NCBI GenBank assembly: GCA_014885115.2 | Contig: WKLE02000128.1 | Location: forward strand, 964-15,221 | From: Asterionellopsis glacialis | Taxonomy: Eukaryota > Bacillariophyta > Plagiogrammaphyceae > Rhaphoneidales > Asterionellopsidaceae | Length of the DNA: 14,258 nucleotides | Reading direction: 5' to 3' | Part shown: piece after piece, positions 1 through 14,258 of the stretch | Layout of the letters: each line of letters opens with the position of its first letter | Numbering within the stretch: the first letter of the stretch is position 1 | Program-made: the position numbers and the translations under genes | Notes under the pieces: model-generated | What the model was told of the DNA's origin: nothing | Databases searched by the model: none | The model's input: only the letters and a program-made list of their open reading frames with translations

Positions 1-489
1 AAGATGTTTGTCAAAAAAATTTGTCACTGGTGTAAATCTTGTACTGTGAAGTTCTTGGATCTGTATATTCAGTCCATCCATCCTTGCACACTGGAAAAGC
101 TTGAGAAATAAAGCCTTTGTTCCTCTGAGTTGATTGTCTCCTAGGCATGTTTTTTTTGTTATCTATATTTTTGATTTACCCAACTTTGATGGTCTGTTCA
201 TCTCTTGGTGGACATAATAAATTACAAATTACAAGTGAAAGCAAAGGTGAGCAACAGGACCTCCTCACTCCAAAGAATCCCTGTACTAGACTTCTATGGG
301 GCATCACCAGAAAATTATGAGTGAAAAGTACAATGATTCAGCAGATCAACCTGACCCAGAGGACAAATGCTGTGAATCACTCCAAACCGTTGCAGCCAAT
401 TGAGTACAGTTAACAATGAAACCTGCAACACAAAGCCAGACAAAAATAAGAAGTTTGGCTCAATAAACAATTTAATCGAACAGAGGGAT

Positions 490-517
490 CTCATCACCTA
501 CATGTGGGTGATAAGAG
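490..517. repeat. Imperfect palindrome, copy 1 of a pair
   Basis: The right half reads GTGGGTGATAAGAG. The left half is its reverse complement with one substitution and a two-base deletion. The right half repeats almost exactly in the perfect palindrome at 541-570, so the two are related copies about 50 bp apart. Confidence 0.7.
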
Positions 518-540
518 GTTTGACTCAATGGACTAAAAAA

Positions 541-570
541 TTCTTATCACCCACGTGTGGGTGATAAGAA
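541..570. repeat. 14-bp-arm perfect inverted repeat, copy 2
   Basis: The arms TTCTTATCACCCAC and GTGGGTGATAAGAA are exact reverse complements separated by only GT. The centre contains CACGTG (552-557), the core of bZIP and bHLH binding sites, and the arms contain TGATAAG, a GATA-type word. With only two bases between the arms it suits a dimer-binding site or a cruciform better than an RNA hairpin. Confidence 0.85.
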
Positions 571-716
571 TGGGTTGGGAGATTAGTGATTATGGTTACT
601 CTGTTCAGTCTGTCCATTCTCTCACTTTTACCTTCATTGCTATCTCATGATCCCAGAATCCTAAACAGCCAGCTGATAAGCTATTTTCAGTTGGGGTTGA
701 TTGGACTTGGGACTTG

Positions 717-729
717 GGTACCAGGTACC
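717..729. repeat. GGTACC-A-GGTACC element
   Basis: Two GGTACC palindromes are separated by one base. The inner word TACCAGGTA also occurs at 2067, 2102 and 13895, so this is one member of a word family scattered through the window. Confidence 0.6.
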
Positions 730-1149
730 ATAACATCTGTTTGTAGGTCCTAAATAGCTGATCCATCAATTTTAGGAGTCTGTTTTTACCCCAGACATCC
801 ATATTGTTCAAAAGCTCTTGAGCTCTAGAATACCAATATTGTCATTGACAAGACTAGTTCCATGTTTATACCTGAATGTGTATCATTTTTATGTTTTAGT
901 ATAGTAATATAAAGTAAGATTAGATAAATACTGGATTATAGCATTATACTTAATTTCTTCAAATCAATAGCTATGTGAAAATAGTTTTAGGGCTACTCCT
1001 TCAGTTTCCTAAATTAAGTAATCAGTATTTTACTGCTTGTGTGCTTAAACAGTCATGCATACAATATACATATACATTACTGTCAATTTTCAGAACAAGA
1101 GCCATTGACAAGAAAAGGAAACTAATGGTGATAGTTTTGTGTTGCTCAA

Positions 1150-1262
1150 CTTGAATACTATGGAATTGGATTCAAAAATCTGTTTTGATGCAACACAGAA
1201 GAATCAAGTTGTTCAGTGTTGTATCAAAACAGAATTTTGAATTGATTGCTATGGCATTCAAG
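1150..1262. repeat. Long foldback (inverted repeat, 47-bp arms)
   Basis: The left arm is 1150-1196 and the right arm 1216-1262. They are the same length and need no gaps to align. I count 38 of 47 positions complementary. The outermost 7 bp and the inner block TCTGTTTTGAT are unbroken. The spacer is 19 nt. Read as plus-strand RNA, four of the nine mismatches become G:U pairs, giving 42 of 47 paired. It could be a MITE-like relic or a source of hairpin RNA. No target-site duplication is evident and no gene is nearby. Confidence 0.8.
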
Positions 1263-1574
1263 TAATGTGAAGCAAAAAAGATGCATCAGGTATTTACAGA
1301 CAGACAGTAGGCCTAGTCCAACTCAAAATCCTAATTGAACTACCAGGAGCAATCATGTAAACAATTTATGGAGCTTTGGTGGGACTCTTTTTTTTGTTTT
1401 TCTGTCAAGAATATTCTGTTGCTACAGCAGCAAAAAATTACTAGATGATTGATTCATAATGATGAAAACAACATCAAGAGGAACAATAAAACATATTCTC
1501 TGCTCTATTGCTCCTAAATTTTTACAGTAATATTTCAAAAAAAAATTTCCACCATACAGGAAAAGGACAATTGC

Positions 1575-1775
1575 TGTGTTGTTGTTCCCTCTGTGGATTG
1601 TTAATTTGACAGAGTTAATTGTTTGTTTTGTCTTTGTTTCATCTCTTTGACATGCATGGGTTTTGAAAAAACAATAAAAAGCTTTTATGGTGGCAAGTAA
1701 ATTACTTGCTTGCATTTTATCATGCCTGCAGGTGAAAACTGATGTGTTGTGGTTCCCTCAGCATGGTGGATTGTT
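1575..1775. repeat. Diverged direct repeat (1575-1602 and 1744-1775)
   Basis: The two segments share TGTGTTGT, GTTCCCTC and TGGATTGTT in the same order. The second copy has about four extra bases in the middle. The copies are about 170 bp apart. This fits an old local duplication, though the short length leaves chance possible. Confidence 0.4.
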
Positions 1776-2132
1776 GCTTGATTCAGTAGACCATCATTGA
1801 GCTGTTCATTTGGTCTTCATTGAGTAGTTGCTTCAAAATAATAACAAAATTCTTACATTTTGCCTGGATGATTAGGACTTTGATTAAGGTTTGATGGGAA
1901 AGATGCCAAATGGCCTTGAATCTCTGGCTTTGGTGGTCTCATAACCAATTAAATGACCTCAAAAATCTTATTTGGACTTTGACTTGGGTGGTCAAATGCA
2001 GGGTGCTTTAAGCACCTAATCTTTTGGTATATACATGCTGCTTGGACCACTACCTGTTAAGTCCTGTACCAGGTAGAACTTGTGGTACACAAATTATTAT
2101 TTACCAGGTACCTACCTACCTGTACACAAAAT

Positions 2133-2134
2133 NN
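2133..2134. other. Two undetermined bases (NN)
   Basis: Two N bases lie in an A+T-rich stretch just after a run of ACCTACCTACC-like sequence. They mark a consensus ambiguity or a joined assembly gap, so distances across this point may not be exact. Confidence 0.95.
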
Positions 2135-2470
2135 TTCCTTCATTTCCCAATAATCTCCCCTCTATTCCCTTTGTTCAAAATTGATACACTATACTCTAGG
2201 AGAAATAAGATGTATATCAATGTACAATGGTGTTTGCAAGGGAAAATGAAACTGACCTAATGTACCATAAATAATGGGGAAAAAATGACTATATTCCTTT
2301 GTGGGCATAACCACCCCCTAATCTGTAGGAAGCCTGGATCCAAGACAAACCTATTTCATTTGAGATAATCTATCTAATTGTTTGACAACCTTCCTTTGTA
2401 CTGCCAACATGTTGTTTATTTCTTCACACTTTATTGTTTTTTATTGATACTTCTGAAAACACGTATTGTT

Positions 2471-2499
2471 AGATGAGATATCTGACATATATCTCATCT
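2471..2499. repeat. 11-bp-arm hairpin
   Basis: The arms AGATGAGATAT (2471-2481) and ATATCTCATCT (2489-2499) are exact reverse complements around a 7-nt loop. There is no gene beside it and no T-run that would suggest a terminator. Confidence 0.75.
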
Positions 2500-2862
2500 G
2501 AGTATTTTATCCCAATATTTTGTTGTGAGTATAGATTTCAAGTACTTGGAAAAAAAAGTTTCCAGAAATAATTAAACCATGCAAATGGATGAAGGACAGA
2601 GACACACCTGCAAGTGATTCCAGACAATGATCAAGGCCAGAATTAATTATCCAAATCTCTTTCATTTGCATGTGTGAAGGATGGTAAACAGAGACTTGTG
2701 GCCAGCAGGACCATATAAGTGTTGGAATTGGATAATTTTGAGGGTTGGTTGGATTCATGGATGTGATGAAAAATTTCATGATGTTGATGATGGTACATGA
2801 AAAAAGTAATCAGTCTCAATCATGGTACCTGATAGATGTGATACCTCTTTCATGAATTGGTG

Positions 2863-2880
2863 CTGATCCTGATCCTGATC
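2863..2880. repeat. (CTGATC)3 tandem repeat
   Basis: Three perfect copies of the hexamer CTGATC. This is a short minisatellite-like run with no coding context. Confidence 0.85.
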
Positions 2881-3120
2881 CAGAAATAATGAAAAACCAT
2901 CAGAATACATCTATAATAATGGAATATACTGCCCAGTATGGCATCAAACATGATGTCACTGACTGTTGTTACCAATTTTACTTTCTACCTAATCAACGAA
3001 TTCCACCTCAGAGAGATTTTTGTTTCCATTTCGTGGAAAAAAAATAATTAGTATGGCTGCTTGGTTGAGGTTGCATAGTATGTATCATGTTGGTGAACAT
3101 ATACCCAGAATAGAATTGAA

Positions 3121-3153
3121 GACACAAATACTTAGATGACACAAATACTTAGA
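3121..3153. repeat. 17-bp tandem duplication
   Basis: GACACAAATACTTAGA occurs at 3121-3136 and again from 3138, so the period is 17 bp. The copies are identical over 16 bp, which suggests a recent slippage duplication. Confidence 0.85.
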
Positions 3154-3634
3154 AGAATATCTTCAAGCAACATCAAGTAGAACAACCAAATAGGGACTAC
3201 AATCATGATGGCACAATGATAAATGGCCAAGGCACCACACATGGCAGAATTATTTAATCTGGTCCAGCTCTACCTATGGCTATGTAATAATAAACATAAT
3301 TTAAGTCTTGTTTAATTCACTTTGTTGCATAAAGAAAAGGAATCTTGATCTTGATAATAGTAAAAGGAGAGTTCTTGAAGTACTACTAGTAAGAAGTACT
3401 GCTCACCCCCCAAAAATCAACCAAAAGGCCATGGTGTAGGATTTTTTTATATTATTACAGTTACAGTTTGAATCTTGTAGGTACATGACTTAAGGCATCT
3501 GCCGGTACTTCAATACAATAGGACCTACTAACTACCTGCTTGACTGAGTGAGCCTGAAAATAGGTCTTTACTATTTTAAAAAATCCCCAGCAACTCCATG
3601 AAAAGACATGGCAAATCCCCTAATGCACACCATC

Positions 3635-3658
3635 TGTTGTTGTTGTTGTTGTTGTTGT
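3635..3658. repeat. (TGT)8 microsatellite
   Basis: Eight perfect TGT units. The last units run into one copy of the diverged motif described at 3651-3700. Confidence 0.95.
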
Positions 3659-4425
3659 AGAACATACTTGTGTAGCTGTAATAGGAAATATAATTTTATT
3701 TGCATGTACAAATATCAATAACTACAATACCAAAAAAAAATTAAAAAATTTTTGAAAGGAAATGTAAGTTTTGTTCTTCTCAAACTGGCATATAACCATC
3801 AGTAAAATCCCAGGAAAGGGACATGAAAACAACACCTTTTTTAGCTTCAATACTGATTTTCAGCACTACTTGTAGCTATATCATATATGTGATATTGAAT
3901 ATACTTAATTTCAAATTATCAAAGTCATCCAGACCAGAAACATTCATCAAAACCTGCTCTTCTTGCTGGGGGACAGTAAAGTTTCTCACTTTCTAAACTT
4001 ATAGTATCTAGCCTCCACAAGACCCCCCCTCTGATCCAAAAGATTGGTAACAACTTCTTTTAGTATTTCTAGAATAACCACACATGTGGATCTGTTCTAA
4101 CCACCAGTAAAGAATATAATTAGTAAGTTTGATTGTACAACATCACCAAGACTACAATCACAAAAACCTGTTCAAGATGCTTGAATGGTTGAAAATATAT
4201 CTGTAACCTCATAATCATATCTGCTGTACCTTGGGAACAAACCAAAAAGGCACCATGGTAGTACATTTTATTGGTGTATAGGATAGTCATACACATTATG
4301 TACAACTGTAAGAGTGACATGATTGAGGGGAACCAAAGCAATCTAGTATGCAAAATCTATAAAAACGTGTCCTTCTCTTTAGTAAAGAAGGAAGTTTCTG
4401 TCTTCACCCTCTTTATCCCCTCATG

Positions 4426-4447
4426 ACATCTAACCTACATCTAACCT
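4426..4447. repeat. 11-bp tandem duplication
   Basis: Two perfect adjacent copies of ACATCTAACCT, followed by a further partial ACCTA. No coding context. Confidence 0.85.
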
Positions 4448-4615
4448 ACCTAAATGTAACAGAATCAAGTCTTCTTACTTATAAATCTATAACAGAAAAT
4501 TTAATCTTTTGACCTTTAGGTCATTTTATACACAAATGAGTACCTTAAATATGTAGGTTCTGTAATATTTTGTGTAAAGTTGTTCTACAGAAAGTGATTT
4601 GATTAAAGGGGGTGT

Positions 4616-4739
4616 CTGGTACAAAATTGCAGAATAAATATATAATTTAGTCTCAAAAGTATCCTATGTGTAGAAAAAGAAAATGTAGACTGTGGTACAA
4701 AATTGCTTTACACATATATAATTTACTTTCAAAAATATC
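4616..4739. repeat. ~48-bp direct repeat, period 76
   Basis: TGGTACAAAATTGC occurs at 4617-4630 and at 4693-4706. The similarity continues in register through ATATATAATTTA and TCAAAA to about 4663 and 4739, with scattered substitutions. It is a local duplication of moderate age. Confidence 0.8.
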
Positions 4740-5260
4740 TTACAGAAACACAAAAAACTACAAGGTCAAATGTATACAATTTCCATCTTTTCATTGATTT
4801 TCATTGATCAACAAAGCCAAGACAATAATATGTCATAAAAATCTGGTATGGATGTTAAAAAAGAAGTTCTTATATACTGTATACTTTTACTAAAGTTATA
4901 GATGATCCCAAGGAACCCCATGAAAAGGACATTGTAGCTGAAGTACACTCCCTGTAGGACACTCTTGAGGATGGATGATTGATGCATGGGCAAGCAGACG
5001 GACTCACTAAAAATTACCATTTACTAAAATTTCCTGATTTCTTACTTCTTACTAATTTGCCAGATTTCTCCAGCATAAAACTAGATCTTTAAACTAGCTC
5101 ATAATTTTCATCACCAAATAAAAGTCTTCTTTTCTTTTGTGTGTTGATTGTCTGATTGTTGTGTTGTGCCACCGTTGACACTAGCAGCATAGGGCAGTAG
5201 CTAGTAGCCAATTGCTCTGTTTGTAGTTGCATGATCCTCTCAGCAATGCAGCAGTAAGTA

Positions 5261-5278
5261 TAATATTTTAAAATATTA
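5261..5278. repeat. 18-bp perfect A/T palindrome
   Basis: TAATATTTTAAAATATTA is identical to its reverse complement. The A+T-only composition makes chance occurrence fairly likely. Confidence 0.7.
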
Positions 5279-6382
5279 ACCTCCCAGGAGTTCAACAAAA
5301 AGATATCAGCACTACTAATCACTTGTATTTCTGGAGTAGCCAACTATTTTTTGGACATCTTGCCTTAATTTCTATCATTTTTGATTAAGCAAAGTCACCA
5401 ACAAGTAGACAACAAAAATTTAGGATGCCTAGTAGTTTTCTTGATGATAGGAAATTTCTGTATTCTTGGGTCTGTTTAAAACTTCCAGGAAGAAACACCA
5501 ATATATATCATGGTATTTACCTCCTTTAAACAAAAACTGGTAGACTATTTAAATTGCTGCTTCTGTTCAGGGGGTTACTTTTATACACTTGACCCACAGT
5601 GATTATAACCATAATTAAGCTGTGGAGTACAATTTTGTGAAGTGGAGCTTACTGGATGGAAAATAGAAAGAGGAAGCAATGGTGCAAATATTGACTACTG
5701 TACACTGACCAAGCAGATGCTAATTGAAAACTAGTTTAAATGAAGGGTTATCAAGTACCATTTCTGGCCAGATGTCACATCATATTGACCTACCTAATCC
5801 TGGAACCACTCTAGCAGAATATATTTTTTGCTGAATGAAGTTTCTGGTATTCTTCCATTTGTATCAAGTCCCCAGCATACACTCCTTCAAAAGGAAATTG
5901 AACACTCATCTTCTTTATTATTATGACTACAAAAAATATTTTGAAATACATTCTTGATGATATAGGTTATTCCTGTACTCTTCAGGTCTCCACCAGGAAT
6001 TCAAATCAAATGGACATGGTGGCACCCAGATATGTTATTTATTTTTGTAGTGTAGAAGCTACATCAAGCTGTGGTAGTAAATATAATTTTATATTTGGAC
6101 CAACCAAAATCACCCAAATTAACAAAAATGGGAACATATTCTTAATGCTAATATAAACTTTCTGTACTATTCTTCAACTAGTTGTAACATACAAGAAGGT
6201 AAAAAAAAACAAGGAAAGGACATATTACATTCATATACATATATTTCTTGCTATATAAGGAGTTACTTGTATTTGTTGCTATAATACTGAAAATGTAATT
6301 TAATGTTGAATGTTAAAAGTCAGCTTAGCAATTCAAAAATCATAAAAATCTATTCTTGGTGATAAATCAAATTTGCTATATC

Positions 6383-6420
6383 CTAAGAGGAAACAACAAG
6401 AGGATTCTAAGAGGAAACAA
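6383..6420. repeat. 14-bp direct repeat, period 24
   Basis: CTAAGAGGAAACAA occurs exactly at 6383-6396 and 6407-6420. A short recent duplication in non-coding DNA. Confidence 0.85.
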
Positions 6421-7648
6421 GGAATTGATATGATACACTCACCTTTTATTTTTGTAGAATCTAGTAACTGCTACTGCTGTGACAGTCAATATAATTTAAT
6501 CTGGATTGAAACAATAAAACAACTCAGACAATTATGGAACAATAGAAACTAATTCCTAAACCATTTGCTGTGTTGTTATGGCTGTTCTTGTACTAATCAA
6601 GTAATTTTTTCTTTGCAACAACAGAAAATAATTATTGGAAAATCTAGTAGTATCTTTTTACAATTCCACACATGGGTGTGCCAACACTTTATTCTTTATG
6701 TAATTTAGTCTAGAGGATGTAATCAAAGATTTTTTGTTTAAAAAAAATGTTGCTACATATTCTTGTCAGATGATTGTCTGCTAGATTTTGTTCTTGTTGT
6801 CATAACAATGCTGTCTGATTTAGCAATAATAGATCATTTTTCATATCTGGATATTTTCAAGTTCAAGTGCTTGGATTTGACTAAGTACCTGTCTTCCTAA
6901 TTCTTTAACTAGATGTGTGTTTGAAAGAATTGTTGAGAATTTGCTTTTGATCCTTTTGTGTTTCAGTAGATTAGTACTATTAGCAAAAGGAAAAGCACAA
7001 GCAACAAGATGATATATGTGACCTGGTATTAGTATACATATCACAGTTGATTATATCAATATACATGGCCAAAAGAAACCATTTTAGGCTCATTATCAAT
7101 TTATTACAGCCATTAGATTAGTGGGTATGATTGGTGGGTTGTTTTGGTTATAGAGTAGTGGGATTAGGTAATTTAAGAAGTGATGATGCCTATTGGTATT
7201 ACTTTTGGTTAATTAGTCTAGCATTCAACAAGGGCATGACAATTAGTTTTCTCTGATCATTCGAGCAAACAAGCATACAGTCATAGGCAACTTCCAGTAC
7301 TATACACAATAAGTTAATCATTTAGTTAGTTAATTGGTTATGGCCATTGGCTGTAGGTGTGAACTAGGATCAGAAGTATGCAATACAGAAGATACTACTA
7401 CATATCATAGCAATCACTTTCTTAAGAAGTTTATAGTATATTATTTATATTGACTGATCATAATGATTGTAGGATTATACTCTATACTACATAGACCAAA
7501 AAACTTCTGATATATAAAAATTTCTCTATTGAGCCTCCTCAACCACAAATACTATTACTCAGAGTTGGAAATGACCCATTGAAGAAGAATAAAAAGCTAC
7601 AAAATATAACCAGTAAAGCATAGAGTTTAGATTTGTTGAAGGTGGTAT

Positions 7649-7663
7649 CAGCAGCAGCAGCAG
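7649..7663. repeat. (CAG)5 microsatellite
   Basis: Five perfect CAG units in non-coding A+T-rich DNA. Confidence 0.9.
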
Positions 7664-8498
7664 TAAAATTCAAAAAGTTACTTTTACACATTTTCTACAT
7701 GATTGTGGTCAGAAAAAATCAAGAATCCTTTGAATGAATTAGTCTGCTGCCAGGTACACAAAATATTTCTCTAAATATTGGCTTGCAAATTGCACAATGG
7801 TGTCAATTCTGACACCTTCAAAAGAAATGCAAGATATCTATAGGTTCTATTGATAGATGAATAAAAAAAACTGTTTGAGATTCCAGCTGAGACCAATAAT
7901 TCAGTTAGTCTAGTACCATGAATTCAGTACACAGTAGAAATAAAAAAAGAACTAAAGTTTTTTTGGGGGACAATGATGCTAAACATGTTAGTAAGGGGGT
8001 GGAGGGGCTTCTTCATATCAAAAATCAGACTATAGATGAACTGCAAATAGTGTTTTGTAACAGATCATGTTAATAATCTGCCATATTTGATACAATGAAA
8101 TGGATTATTCTCAGGGTGTTGAGACCAAGAAGAATTAATAAGAAATGACAAAAAAAACTAGTAGAAAACATGGGAACAGTTAAATCCGAGGAGAAAAAAT
8201 GATGGGCATCATCAGAAATGAAGTTATGGCACCACCTTTTAAGGAATAGCTAGAAAGCACAATAAATTATTTTCATGTTATCCATGCATAGTAGTACCAT
8301 CATTTTTTTCATGACTTGTTTGTCAACATTGTTGGAAAGTACTTTTATAGAGAAGAATTCTTTAACATGAAATATTAAGAAAAGTTTTAAACATAACTTA
8401 ACTTTTACAATTTCCATTTCCATTGAAAAATATGAAAATGTTCCAAAAAAATTTGATACTACCAGCAATAAAGGAATAATATTTTCTTGTCCCCCCCT

Positions 8499-8518
8499 TC
8501 CTTTTTTTAAAAAAAGGA
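8499..8518. repeat. 20-bp perfect palindrome, T7/A7 core
   Basis: TCC, then seven T, seven A and GGA form a perfect palindrome immediately after a run of seven C. It is homopolymer-driven, and a likely place for sequencing or assembly error. Confidence 0.8.
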
Positions 8519-8945
8519 TTGTTATGCTATAGAAGAAAGTAGATGAATATAGTCTCATTGTTTGTGCATTCTTTTTCAAGCTTCTCTTGCTGTGGTTTGC
8601 TTTTGATGCATAACCTACCAACTTCTGGTTTCTGTTATCATTATAGTAATTCTTGAGCATCTATAATTATACTAATACTTTGAACAGTACTACTATTAAT
8701 AATACTATAAAGGGACAATATACTAGCATTGTAAGTTAATAATTAGAAGTAAAAAAAAAAGTAGGATTATTATTATAGTCTTAGATATCTCCTGCATGTA
8801 CAACTTACTTATGCTACTAATTAGTGATACTGTGTTGTTCTTGTACATCACTAGGTGCTTAGTTACTTGAGTAAGAGAGTGATTCTCTGTACTATACAGA
8901 GTCATACAATTTATGTGTGCATATTTTTTCATGATCAACCAATCA

Positions 8946-8959
8946 TGATGTTAACATCA
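8946..8959. repeat. 14-bp palindrome TGATGTTAACATCA
   Basis: Perfectly self-complementary. It lies within a small cluster of ATCATG/TCATGA words (8929-8960) about 560 bp upstream of the TMTC start codon. Possibly a protein-binding site, but nothing shows this. Confidence 0.5.
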
Positions 8960-9109
8960 GTATGAAACCTATGATCAGAGAAATCTGCAAATATGATGGT
9001 GCAAGAATTGATTATGTATTTAGAGATTCAGATTCAGAGCTGTTTGTTGAAAAGTTAGAATTTGTGATCACAACTAATGTTCACTAACTAGTCCTCTTAC
9101 TAATTAGAA

Positions 9110-9523
9110 CGTGGTAGTTACCGGTAGGTACTCTCTTGAGGGTTTCTGTACTACCGAAAAAAGTATTTATTAGTACTATTCATTAATGTTCGAGTTATCC
9201 AGGATTTGGGTCGTTGGTTCTTCTGTTATTATTCAGATTAGAGACCGAGTTACCCAAAAAATCTTTTTTCTTCTCCTGCCTTTTTGTCTCGTTTCAAACA
9301 GTCGGTTGGAAAATTCGAAAATCCAAGAAAAACTTCACGTTGTGCGATTCTCCCACACTGAAGGGTTTTGTTGTCATTACAAGTATTATACTTGTACTTT
9401 ACGCCATCAACTTCTAGATATGCCTCATACGACGGATACCCTTTGAGGCGTTGATCAAGACAAGAAGAATACTGGTGTGCTTGTATTAAAGAAATATATT
9501 TGGTTTTGTTTAAAATTTAAAGT
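9110..9523 (+). promoter_or_regulatory. Promoter/leader region of the TMTC gene
   Basis: From about 9110 the sequence becomes visibly less A+T-rich and contains CG dinucleotides (ACGTGG, ACCGGTAGGTACT, TTCGAGTT), unlike the DNA to its left, so the gene's own control region probably starts here. GTTACCGGTAGGTAC near 9117-9131 belongs to the GGTAC/ACCGGT words seen again upstream of other genes in this window. Two short frames (9186-9446 and 9214-9417) are open but resemble no family; if transcribed they would be upstream ORFs. An in-frame TAA at 9518-9520 lies just before the start codon. Confidence 0.4.
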
Positions 9524-11482
9524 ATGGTTCTCTCATTATTGAAGCGACCAAGTTTTTGGGCTGCACTCGTCAGTCTTATCGCATATTGTGATAAAGAAGC
9601 CTTACATGGATACTGGGTGTATGATGATTCTGGTTCTGTGGCACGTAATCCCGTAGTGACTGGTGAGGTCCCTATTGACAATGCCTTTACTCGTGATTAT
9701 TGGGGTACACCCATGGTTGAAGTAACTAGTCACAAATCATTCCGACCCATAACAACATTAACATTTCGATTGAATTGGTGGCTTGCACAATACTTCGGTT
9801 GGATGGAGACTAGTACGAAACTTGCCAATACACTTGGATTCAATATTGTTAACTTTGTACTGCATGCGATTGTGACGGGCCTTGTGACGGAGGCAAGTAC
9901 GTATATATTTGATGGTGGAACGCAGGGAGATTTAATTTCACAACTATTGACAGGACTTTTATTTGGTCTACATCCAGTTCATGTCGAGGCTGTGAGTAAT
10001 ATTACCAGTCGTGGTGAAATTTTAATGTCATTCTTCTTTTTATTGGCATTCTTATCGTTTGCAAGTCACATTCCGAATGCACGACGACATCGTCGTGGCA
10101 AAACGCCCAACGAAACAAAACCAACAATCTTGACCAGTATTCAAAATGGATTTTTTATTTACATTGCACCCTGGTTCTTTATGATTTGTTCTGTGTTTTC
10201 GAAAGAACAAGGAGCAACAACATTGATCACGTTAGTGGTATATGATTTTTTAAATAACATTGGATCTATCCAAACATTCTTCCAACGAGTGATGGCAAAG
10301 GAAAGGGAAACATTGAAATTTGTTCTACGGACAATCATTTTAGCAACCGAAACCTTGGCTGTGGTAGCATTCCGTATGTGGTTGAATGGTGAAACCAAAC
10401 CTGACTTTATAGTAGATCAAAATCCAGCAGGATTTGCAGAAGATCGTTTCACAAGAATATTTTCAGTTTGTTGGGTCCATTGTTTGTATGTATTTGATAT
10501 GATCTTTCCTAAATACTTATGTCCTGATTGGAGTGGTAATAGTATCCCTTTGATTGAAAGTTTAACAGACGAACGATCGGCAGGTCCTATAGTATTATGG
10601 TTAGCCACAGCATGGTGTTGTAAATCACTTTTGGTAGGTCCCAAGGATGGTGCAAGTACAATTCGCAAGGAAGCACGACGAATTTTACTTATAGCATTCT
10701 TTGGCTTTTTAGTTAGTCCCTTCCTCCTATCATCCAACCTAATTGTGGTAGTTGGTCTTATGAAAGGTGATCGTGTCATCTACCTACCATTGTTAGGATT
10801 CTGCATGATGGAAGCATTGGCGTTCAAACTTTTGTTTTGTGCTGAAAGGCAAACAAATGTCGAGAAGGACAACAAAAGTACTACGTCCAAGGCAAGAAAC
10901 TTTGGTAAAATATACTGGTTGGGACATTTACTTGTGATGATTCAACTTGTATTGCTTACCTACAAGACTCACACACGAAACTTAGCATGGAGTCATAGTG
11001 TCAGGTTGTGGACTGCTGCCTACGAAATCAACCCCATTAGTGAACATACCATGTATAATTGTGGCTACGAACTTTCTTTGAAACAGCGGTATTTAGAATC
11101 AGAACGAGTCATGCGTCCTATAGGTAGTGCTCGGAAAAGTGGACCAAGTAATACTTTCGTGTACGCGATGGCTTTGTATAATTTAGATAAAGTCATTGAA
11201 GCAAATGCATTTGTAGATGAAGCACTTGAAGTAATAGAAGAACAAAAGAAGAAGGGAGGAAAACGTAACACCCCTGGAATGCTTGCAAAAACAGAAAGTA
11301 ATTTGTTGGTAGCTAAAGCTCTTATTTTGTCAAGGTCAGATATGGAAGCAGCAGGACGAACGGCATGGAAAGCAGTTCAGGTTGATCCTCGCAGTGAATA
11401 TGCTATCAACCAAGCACAACAGATAGCTAATCGAATTGAAATGATGAAAAAGTATCAAGGTCAAGGTTATGCGGTTAATTAA
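9524..11482 (+). CDS. TMTC-family (DUF1736/TPR) membrane protein, putative protein O-mannosyltransferase
   Basis: A 652-residue polytopic membrane protein read without an intron. Family hallmarks occur in order: first membrane segment (about 8-22) followed by VYDD (32-35), the acidic luminal motif expected of GT-C glycosyltransferases; SHKSFRP and TFRLNWW (69-86); NIVNFVLH (107-114); LHPVHVEAVSNITSRGE (149-165); SKEQG (226-230); DUF1736-type NPAGFAEDR and LCPDWS (300-308, 332-337); GDRVIYLP (415-422). I count about ten hydrophobic segments up to 482. The rest (about 495-640) is helical with about three degenerate TPR units, the clearest at 590-622. Animal TMTC1-4 proteins are longer with more TPRs, so this is a short form. 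Family members add O-linked mannose to cadherin-type domains in the ER; the substrate here is unknown. The in-frame TAA at 9518 and the position of the first membrane segment support this start. Confidence 0.9.
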   Translation: MVLSLLKRPSFWAALVSLIAYCDKEALHGYWVYDDSGSVARNPVVTGEVPIDNAFTRDYWGTPMVEVTSHKSFRPITTLTFRLNWWLAQYFGWMETSTKLANTLGFNIVNFVLHAIVTGLVTEASTYIFDGGTQGDLISQLLTGLLFGLHPVHVEAVSNITSRGEILMSFFFLLAFLSFASHIPNARRHRRGKTPNETKPTILTSIQNGFFIYIAPWFFMICSVFSKEQGATTLITLVVYDFLNNIGSIQTFFQRVMAKERETLKFVLRTIILATETLAVVAFRMWLNGETKPDFIVDQNPAGFAEDRFTRIFSVCWVHCLYVFDMIFPKYLCPDWSGNSIPLIESLTDERSAGPIVLWLATAWCCKSLLVGPKDGASTIRKEARRILLIAFFGFLVSPFLLSSNLIVVVGLMKGDRVIYLPLLGFCMMEALAFKLLFCAERQTNVEKDNKSTTSKARNFGKIYWLGHLLVMIQLVLLTYKTHTRNLAWSHSVRLWTAAYEINPISEHTMYNCGYELSLKQRYLESERVMRPIGSARKSGPSNTFVYAMALYNLDKVIEANAFVDEALEVIEEQKKKGGKRNTPGMLAKTESNLLVAKALILSRSDMEAAGRTAWKAVQVDPRSEYAINQAQQIANRIEMMKKYQGQGYAVN

Positions 11483-12090: not shown

Positions 12091-13233
12091 ATGCTAGAAC
12101 ACCGCCTCGCTATTTTCTTATTGATTTTGGGTCAATTTTTCGGTGGTGATGCCTTTCTTGCTCCATTGTCACCAGTAAACAAGAAGCACCATGACCATCA
12201 ACAAAGCTCAGTAGCCCGTCATCTTTCTGCCCCTGCTGATTCAGACTTTGAAAGGCCTGTTGCCACGTCTGACAGATTAGTTGATGCAGATAATTATAAC
12301 GTTCCATTAGAAAAAGCTGCAGAGTTGTGGACTGCATCTGTACAGGAAAGTACAACTGCTACACGTGATGCAGGAATGCCATTTTTAGATTCTAAATCTA
12401 AGGATTACTTTGTAGATGATATTGAAAATATCCGTGTATCACGAGAAGGGGGTATGGGTATCGAATTATTAGAACTGGCCGGAGGACGTGATGATGGATT
12501 TGGTATTACCATAGTGACCGCTGTAGTGCCTGGTGGTAATGCAGACAAGGCAGGTATTATCCCTGGTGACTCCATTGCATCTATTGCAGTAACTACGTCA
12601 AATGTTGTGGGCAATAATGCGATTGAAGAGTCAACACAAGTGCGTGGATGCGAATGCCTTGATTTTGATAATACCATGTCTATCCTTGCCAACTTTCCAG
12701 GTGATGCATCTGAGGTATACATTAGTTTAAAACGGATACGTCGATGGCCCAAGGTACAAGTACGTGTTGAATACCCCCCTTCACAATGTGCAGAGGGTGT
12801 TAGTAATGTTCGTGATATTGAATTGTTCGCCGGCGAAAATTTAAGAAGAGCTCTGCTCAATCGCGGTATCATTATGGATGACCCTGAAGCACCTAAATGC
12901 GACTTTTGTGGAGGCAAATGTACTGTGTCTGTTTCTCGTGGCATGAGATTGTTAAACCCCATCGGTACAACAGAAAAGAAAATTATGGAACGCAATCCCA
13001 AGTGTAGGGTAAGTTTGAAAAGAATATACTTAATGTGATGCTGCAAGTCCTCCTGAAAGAAAATATGTGTACTGAAAAAGAAGAACAAACATCTCATTAT
13101 TTTTTTTCTTTCTCTTGACCTGGATTTCTGACTGACTGTATTACTCCGCCAAAAGCTTTCTTGCAAAACAACTGTTGGATATAATATGCAAGAAGGTGAT
13201 ATCCAATTACGTGTTAACTTGAGACAGTGGTAA
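12091..13233 (+). CDS. Plastid-targeted PDZ plus [2Fe-2S] ferredoxin-like protein (exons 12091-13008, 13156-13233)
   Basis: Spliced product 331 residues. Residues 1-21 are a signal peptide (hydrophobic AIFLLILGQFF) ending at DAF-LAP, a variant of the diatom ASAFAP motif, followed by a Lys/His/Ser-rich transit stretch (to about 50); stroma or thylakoid delivery is inferred. Residues about 108-216 form a PDZ domain with carboxylate-binding loop GGMGIEL and the plastid-PDZ-like PGGNADKAGIIPGD. Residues about 220-331 look like a ferredoxin beta-grasp (KVQVRVEY, DIELFAGENLRRALL) with Cys270, 273, 277, 305 and 309. C-x2-C-x3-C is not the plant ferredoxin spacing C-x4-C-x2-C; RLSCKT at 309 matches the usual position of the last ligand. 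The signal peptide begins exactly at the ATG 12091, so upstream open frame is not counted. The PDZ part recalls plant MET1; the exact function is unknown. Exon 2 carries Cys309. Confidence 0.8.
13009..13155 (+). other. Intron, 147 bp, phase 0
   Basis: The donor is AGG|GTAAGT at 13009 and the acceptor CAAAAG ends at 13155. A pyrimidine-rich tract (about 13093-13115, mainly T) precedes the acceptor by about 40 bp. Without splicing the frame would end at 13038 after SLKRIYLM and lose the last Cys and final strand of the ferredoxin fold. With splicing it joins ...NPKCR to LSCKTTVG..., which restores the expected motif. Confidence 0.85.
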
Positions 13234-13432
13234 ATATTGCTGCGGTGTCATAATATGTGTGGAGATAATGACTATCCATACCTCGATTACTGGCTGACTG
13301 TATTGCTCCACCAAAAGCTTTCCTGAAAAACAACTGTTGGGAATAATAATTAGCAAGAAGGTGATGTTCAATTACGGGTCAACTTGAGACAGTGGTAAAT
13401 ATTACTTTTAACTGTCATGTGATGATATGTGA
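13119..13432 (+). repeat. Tandem duplication of intron end, last exon and flank (period 162)
   Basis: Unit 1 runs from 13119 to about 13262 and unit 2 from 13281 to about 13432. By hand count the intron flanks match at 32 of 37 positions and the exon parts at 68 of 78, plus a 3-nt insertion in unit 2. Similarity then fades through TAAATATT and a TGTCAT...ATATGTG stretch. The pyrimidine tract of the intron lies outside the duplicated unit. Confidence 0.9.
13318..13398 (+). pseudogene. Duplicated terminal exon with two in-frame stops
   Basis: A copy of exon 2 of the PDZ-ferredoxin gene, preceded by the same CCAAAAG acceptor and ending in the same LRQW-stop. It differs by ten substitutions and one extra codon. 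Codon 3, the Cys309 codon TGC in the working exon, is TGA. Codon 12 is TAG. Four substitutions are silent (Ser, Gly, Arg, Val) and one is Ile to Val, so much of the divergence looks as if it accumulated under selection in one or both copies. Spliced to exon 1 at 13318 it would stop after two residues. It lies in the 3' UTR or just beyond the working copy. Confidence 0.85.
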
Positions 13433-14131
13433 TTATTATTATTTACAGTATTTTTTGTAAAGCCATTCTGCAATACAGTTCTCGTTAACCCTACTCCAAA
13501 AGATAAAAATAATAGAGTGTTAATTTTTTTAAAAATCGGTAGGCTTGCAGACGAGTTTTCTTGGAGAGAGAACAATGACTATGAACCAATGAAATTACTC
13601 GAATCTGGGTCGAAAGACACGGGCAGAGAACAGCAAACGAACTTCAACACCAGAAAAATCTAGTCTAATCTTGCCGTTTGCGAGTATAGAATGTACAGAG
13701 CGTTCATCTTATTCTGGTAGAATACGAGATACGAAGAGAGCACAAAACCATACTACCAGTAGTTAACAGGAGAATCTCCTTTAAATAATGCGATGCCTGC
13801 CTGCTGGAAAAAAAGACGGCGGAGTCTTTGGGGTGGAGACAATTTGACTGGCAGAGGATCTTCTAGAGTACCTCTGGTACTTCTCTAGGTAAAGTACCAG
13901 GTACCGGTACAGGTAATGATGAGAGAATACCTTAGGTAGAACAAGCACTGCTATTTACCGGTTCTACGCCAGGACATTGCATACAACGGTAGACAGAGAG
14001 ATCTTACCTGATATCTTTGCGCCTCATGGTTGGCGGTAGCGTTCGCATCCCATCATTATAGTATACTACTGGTACAGAGCTTTCATTTGCTTTGCACTTT
14101 GAACACGGTATACAAGAGCAAAGGTTGAACC
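13433..14131. other. Intergenic region right of the PDZ-ferredoxin gene
   Basis: I see no gene here. The first 100 bp are A+T-rich. From about 13540 the base composition is more balanced with frequent CG, as in the promoter regions elsewhere in this window, which suggests the control region of a further gene. AGGAGA-A-TCTCCT (13768-13780) is a small hairpin. The GGTAC cluster is listed separately. Confidence 0.5.
13866..13916. repeat. GGTAC/TACC word cluster
   Basis: Within about 50 bp there are GAGTACC, TGGTAC, CTAGGTA, AAGTACC, AGGTACCGGTAC and AGGTA. The block AGTACCAGGTACCGGTAC (13894-13911) is three overlapping palindromic units. It lies about 220-265 bp before a possible start codon at 14132. 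Similar words stand before the other two genes (9117-9131 and 11678-11693). Confidence 0.55.
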
Positions 14132-14162
14132 ATGCTTGCCGGAAATAAATACGACAGCGAAG
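14132..14162 (+). CDS. Possible first coding exon of a gene continuing off the right edge
   Basis: An ATG in good eukaryotic context (GAACCATGC) opens MLAGNKYDSE and meets a consensus-like 5' splice site, GAAG|GTAAGC, at 14162/14163. The sequence after it turns T-rich, as in an intron. Unspliced, the frame stops at 14209. The peptide is too short to identify. Chance is a real alternative. Confidence 0.25.
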
Positions 14163-14258
14163 GTAAGCTAAGAGATACTTTTAGTGTTTCGAATTACTTC
14201 CTACGGTAGCGTTTGAGCATTTCTGACAGAAGACCTGTTTTTTGTTCTTCTCTAAAAA

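Follow-up and report, generated by a model that had tools for sequence, protein, structure and literature searches.

In the window analysed here, a 14,258-nt stretch of the genome of the diatom Asterionellopsis glacialis, we identified a tandem duplication of the terminal exon of a PDZ-ferredoxin-like gene (Table 1). The second copy of the exon (copy 2) lies downstream of the true stop codon of the gene and carries two premature in-frame stops, the first of them replacing a codon for an invariant cysteine. The feature is real, and nothing observed here points to a role for the second copy. We consider it very probable that this copy is a young duplicate undergoing neutral decay, of an ordinary kind and arising through ordinary genome wear.

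Table 1. Features of the PDZ-ferredoxin-like gene and its duplicated terminal exon (positions are those of the window).
Feature	Position	Strand	Remarks
Exon 1, PDZ-ferredoxin-like gene	12091..13008	+	ATG to codon 306 (AGG); open frame; P0001 85% identical over the whole length
Intron, 147 nt	13009..13155	+	GTAAGT...AAAAG; T-rich tract at about 13096-13117; CTGAC at 13128 and 13132
Exon 2, terminal exon in use	13156..13233	+	78 nt; encodes LSCKTTVGYNMQEGDIQLRVNLRQW, then TAA
Duplicated block, copy 1	13118..13241	+	38 nt of intron end, exon 2 and 8 nt past the stop
38-nt spacer between blocks	13242..13279	+	Not significantly like the sequence following copy 2; weak likeness at most to the intron
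Duplicated block, copy 2	13280..13406	+	About 87% identical to copy 1
Decayed exon copy	13318..13398	+	LS*KTTVGNNN*QEGDVQLRVNLRQW*

The gene (12091-13233, forward strand) is predicted to encode a product of 331 residues, for which the best match over the full length was P0001, a protein from an MMETSP transcriptome. The best species-named relatives are diatoms, including Helicotheca tamesis, Trieres chinensis, Corethron hystrix, Fragilaria crotonensis and Pseudo-nitzschia multistriata, and the names listed for this diatom family are restricted to PDZ domain protein, ferredoxin or hypothetical protein. Near the N-terminus is a G-D-A-F-L-A-P sequence, which we take to resemble the diatom plastid-targeting motif. 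Searches against Pfam returned PDZ models alone, all scoring below their cut-offs, and no Pfam ferredoxin model matched up to an E-value of 0.1. The C-terminal domain matches by sequence the PnsB3 chains of solved structures (best E 8.4e-05 when the protein is searched alone, 1.7e-06 when a profile is used), the R-L-S-C of the host protein being aligned with the R-L-A-C of PnsB3. PnsB3 (NDF4) is the ferredoxin-like subunit of the chloroplast NDH complex; the diatom protein differs from it in possessing an N-terminal PDZ-like domain and a cysteine spacing of CxxCxxxC. Cysteines 270, 273, 277 and 309 are conserved without exception across 13 aligned sequences, with the matching four present in 39 chosen homologues, and from this pattern Cys309 is likely to be a ligand of an iron-sulfur cluster. 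The AlphaFold model of P0001, consulted for cysteine geometry, has a mean pLDDT of 74 that falls below 50 at residues 307-311, the last cysteine included, and is uninformative there; Foldseek searches with the same model returned PDZ domains and no ferredoxin among the first 50 of 797 matches.

Two paralogues of the gene were also found in the genome, on C1082 (41%) and on C1461 (33%), both possessing the homologous C-terminus without interruption. At 12898-12921 of the window, Cys 270, 273 and 277 are spaced CxxCxxxC, unlike the CxxxxxCxxC of the C1082 paralogue, and for this reason the cluster loop may have been remodelled in the diatom PDZ family. Antisense to the gene we also noted a 280-codon open frame (12405-13247, reverse strand), which is probably a by-product of codon usage.

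Joining position 13008 to 13156 yields R-L-S-C-K, as found uninterrupted in P0001 and most of the listed homologues, and exon 1 followed by copy 1 ends in the same way as P0001. P0001 itself, which derives from the transcriptome of a relative, has the intact C-terminus alone. Among the best 120 of 230 matches the terminal segment was present in 108 and missing in 12. In 11 of these 12, N-P-x-C-R runs straight into V-S or V-R, as would result from translating into a retained intron whose GT donor occupies the same position; the remaining one, the Attheya gene model P0009, omits part of the terminal exon. Since 11 homologues read into V-S or V-R at the same point, the position of the intron is common to the family.

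That the terminal exon was duplicated together with its intron flank, as an earlier note on this DNA had claimed, was confirmed by aligning the two blocks, the joined alignment of 124 and 127 nt scoring 167, whereas 300 dinucleotide shuffles gave no score above 26. The same note had given a period of 162 over 13119-13432, which holds for the first part of the direct repeat (13118-13186 and 13280-13348, 87% identity); the second part (13181-13241 and 13346-13406, 89% identity) is instead spaced by 165, and homology extends only over 13118-13241 and 13280-13406. The homologous block starts near the branch point and ends just past the stop codon, and is therefore close to a functional unit. An AG acceptor and at least one branch-point-like CTGAC are found in both copies, the latter once in copy 2 (13294), and together with the extent and identity of the block this corresponds to the structure of a tandemly duplicated exon. 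The T-rich tract of the intron is outside the duplicated block, so that copy 2 lacks one. Complete 162-nt repeat units were also considered and rejected, the spacer showing no significant similarity to the sequence that follows copy 2 (under two scoring schemes, its score was equalled or exceeded by 188 and 151 of 1000 shuffles). The likeness of the spacer to the first intron is weak at most (the corresponding counts are 29 and 72 of 1000), a faint hint that it may be a remnant of that intron. Tandem Repeats Finder did not report the copy 1/copy 2 pair at its default threshold.

A codon-by-codon reading of copy 2, whose acceptor AG occupies 13316-13317, agreed with the earlier note in that the Cys309 codon is TGA, a further in-frame stop follows (TAG, nine codons after the TGA), and the acceptor, reading register and final TAA have all been retained. 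It also revealed an in-frame insertion of 3 nt (AAT) absent from that note. In total, the two copies differ by five silent and five replacing substitutions and one inserted codon. Three of the replacing changes put TGA in place of Cys309, Asn in place of Tyr and TAG in place of Met. Of the 108 homologues possessing the segment (of the best 120 of 230 matches), 108 have the cysteine, 104 the methionine and 98 the tyrosine at these sites. With two premature stops, one of them at Cys309, copy 2 therefore has neither the open frame nor the conserved key residues of a functional alternative or substitution exon. In having a coding exon and its splice signals repeated in tandem and in the same register, the locus is similar to the tandem exon duplications, known from human and fly genes, that give rise to substitution (mutually exclusive) exons. 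Known functional duplications of this type retain the main structural and functional residues (PMC9741552), whereas here a stop codon has replaced the key cysteine, the duplicated exon is the last one and any use of the copy is putative. The locus also resembles decayed duplicated exons (pseudo-exons), likewise copies that contain in-frame stops and sit in non-coding DNA next to a working exon; the present case differs from them solely in following the stop codon of a last exon.

Under the preferred reading of neutral decay, some 124 nt, from the final part of the last intron through the terminal exon to 8 nt past the stop, would have been copied to a position 38 nt downstream, probably through ordinary replication slippage or break repair. 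Copy 1 would still serve, exon 1 being spliced at 13008/13156 and translation ending at 13233, and copy 2 would fall either within the 3' untranslated region or beyond the end of the transcript. Because nothing beyond the stop codon requires copy 2, neutral decay would have turned it into a pseudo-exon. Any splicing to its acceptor would yield a protein truncated after residue 308, without the fourth conserved cysteine and the C-terminal strand.

The substitution counts were compared with simulations in which copy 1 was constrained and copy 2 was neutral, half constrained or 90% constrained, conditioned on about 10 changes (743 of 12,000 neutral runs, 1018 runs at half constraint and 379 at 90% constraint were kept). 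A neutral copy 2 accumulated on average 3.5 silent and 6.5 replacing changes, with a probability of 0.18 for at least five silent ones, and acquired a premature stop in 45% of runs, while keeping the final stop in 80% and the acceptor AG in 82%. At 90% constraint, five or more replacing changes arose in 4% of runs. Strong constraint on copy 2 throughout is hence disfavoured, and the data are compatible with a copy that was neutral from birth. Given how often the acceptor and final stop persist in neutral runs, these surviving signals are not evidence of use. Somewhat against the neutral reading, the silent changes exceed the neutral mean (5 versus 3.5), the AG, register, CTGAC and TAA have all survived, and the duplicated block is close to a functional unit in extent. 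Copy 2 might instead have worked for a time as an alternative terminal exon and been lost recently: five of the ten changes are silent, the insertion preserves the frame, and the counts agree somewhat better with half constraint than with none (P = 0.56 for at least five silent changes). Neutral decay alone, however, is not rejected, and such a past is not needed to account for the silent differences, which the earlier note had offered as a hint of it. Furthermore, last exons are barred from classical mutually exclusive splicing (PMC9741552), and a choice between two last exons would need an intervening poly(A) site, here only putative. We accordingly regard a period of past use as unlikely. 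Of the suggestion in the earlier note that an alternative terminal exon is being born or lost, birth would find support only in the intact AG, which neutral decay preserves at the frequency given above, and in the branch-point-like CTGAC; loss is apt only in the sense of a decaying duplicate.

The intact AG, single CTGAC and register of copy 2 might also be read as those of a regulated poison last exon in present use, choice of the acceptor at 13317 over that at 13155 giving a PDZ protein truncated after RLS and unable to hold a cluster. Were the second acceptor in use, loss of one cluster cysteine, the fourth, by last-exon choice would constitute a simple on/off switch for a plastid iron-sulfur protein. 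However, the first acceptor lies upstream, comes first and has the T-rich tract, and survival of the second AG by chance is common in the neutral runs. The RNA fold of 13009-13441 is moreover ordinary (z -0.18, 41 of 100 shuffles folding as well), and a special RNA structure at this site, also considered, finds no support; we judge present use as a poison exon very unlikely. The draft state of the assembly (1503 contigs for a eukaryotic genome of 40.3 Mb, with long runs of N) raises the question of whether two haplotypes or a misjoin were placed in tandem. Copies some 13% apart, with two stops in one of them, are however unlike two alleles of a working exon, and a DNA search of the assembly found the region once only, making an artefact highly improbable. 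Finally, as the TGA falls exactly at a cysteine codon, copy 2 might be intact if TGA were recoded, either as selenocysteine or through a changed genetic code. An in-frame TAG nevertheless follows nine codons later, so that the frame is not otherwise open, and no SECIS element was among four weak matches in 12900-14258, nor did any Rfam family reach its threshold over the whole window. A scan of kinase domains in the same genome also found inner stops in 15 of 140 matched stretches (5 TGA, 7 TAG and 9 TAA), with no excess of TGA or TAG, and we attach next to no probability to recoding.

Turning to the background frequency of such repeats, self-comparison of the first 10 kb of contigs C1-C19 (190,000 bases, of which 35,117 are N, leaving about 155 kb readable) for repeats of at least 60 nt, with starts within 600 nt and E up to 1e-8, identified four other local direct repeat pairs, with spacings of 77, 154, 243 and 300 nt and identities of 76-90%. 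By extrapolation, each readable Mb would contain about 26 local direct repeats, with a wide margin of error, and the genome on the order of a thousand; it is unsurprising that one should land on a last exon. With respect to age, both copies encode Gln at a site where 1 of 108 homologues (from the best 120 of 230 matches) has Gln and P0001 has Asn, a pattern that tentatively places the duplication after the divergence from the P0001 species; this dating is weak because the Attheya model P0009 also has Gln there. Alignment-based scans of viral contigs and genome contigs for DNA of the same locus in relatives returned no relative, and no title found by literature searches describes the locus, which is no proof of its absence from print. 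As it stands the duplicated exon is of little importance, a well-preserved case of local duplication in a compact algal genome making spare exons that decay beside the working exon; it would gain importance if the second acceptor proved to be in use.

Several observations were also made in the neighbourhood of the gene and elsewhere in the genome. Directly upstream, a single open frame of about 652 codons (9524-11482, forward strand) contains the DUF1736 domain of TMTC proteins (protein O-mannosyl-transferases; 65.5 bits against a cut-off of 27). The first 9.5 kb of the window (1-9500) hold no open frame longer than 136 codons, forming a gene-poor, AT-rich stretch in a compact genome. From just beyond the right end of the window, 6,418 of 9,901 bases read N, as a gap or as withheld sequence, followed by a chaperonin-60-like open frame. 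On two other contigs (G000:C927:10722-14351 and G000:C729:365-3974), the two halves of a kinase domain (profile positions of about 1-132 and 132-263) are repeated several times on one strand, a pattern expected of kinase genes arrayed in tandem and sharing the position of one intron. Among histone-like open frames picked by motif (L005-L017), all nine distinct frames end in TAA, a strong stop-codon preference, and one neighbouring frame (L003) ends in TGA.
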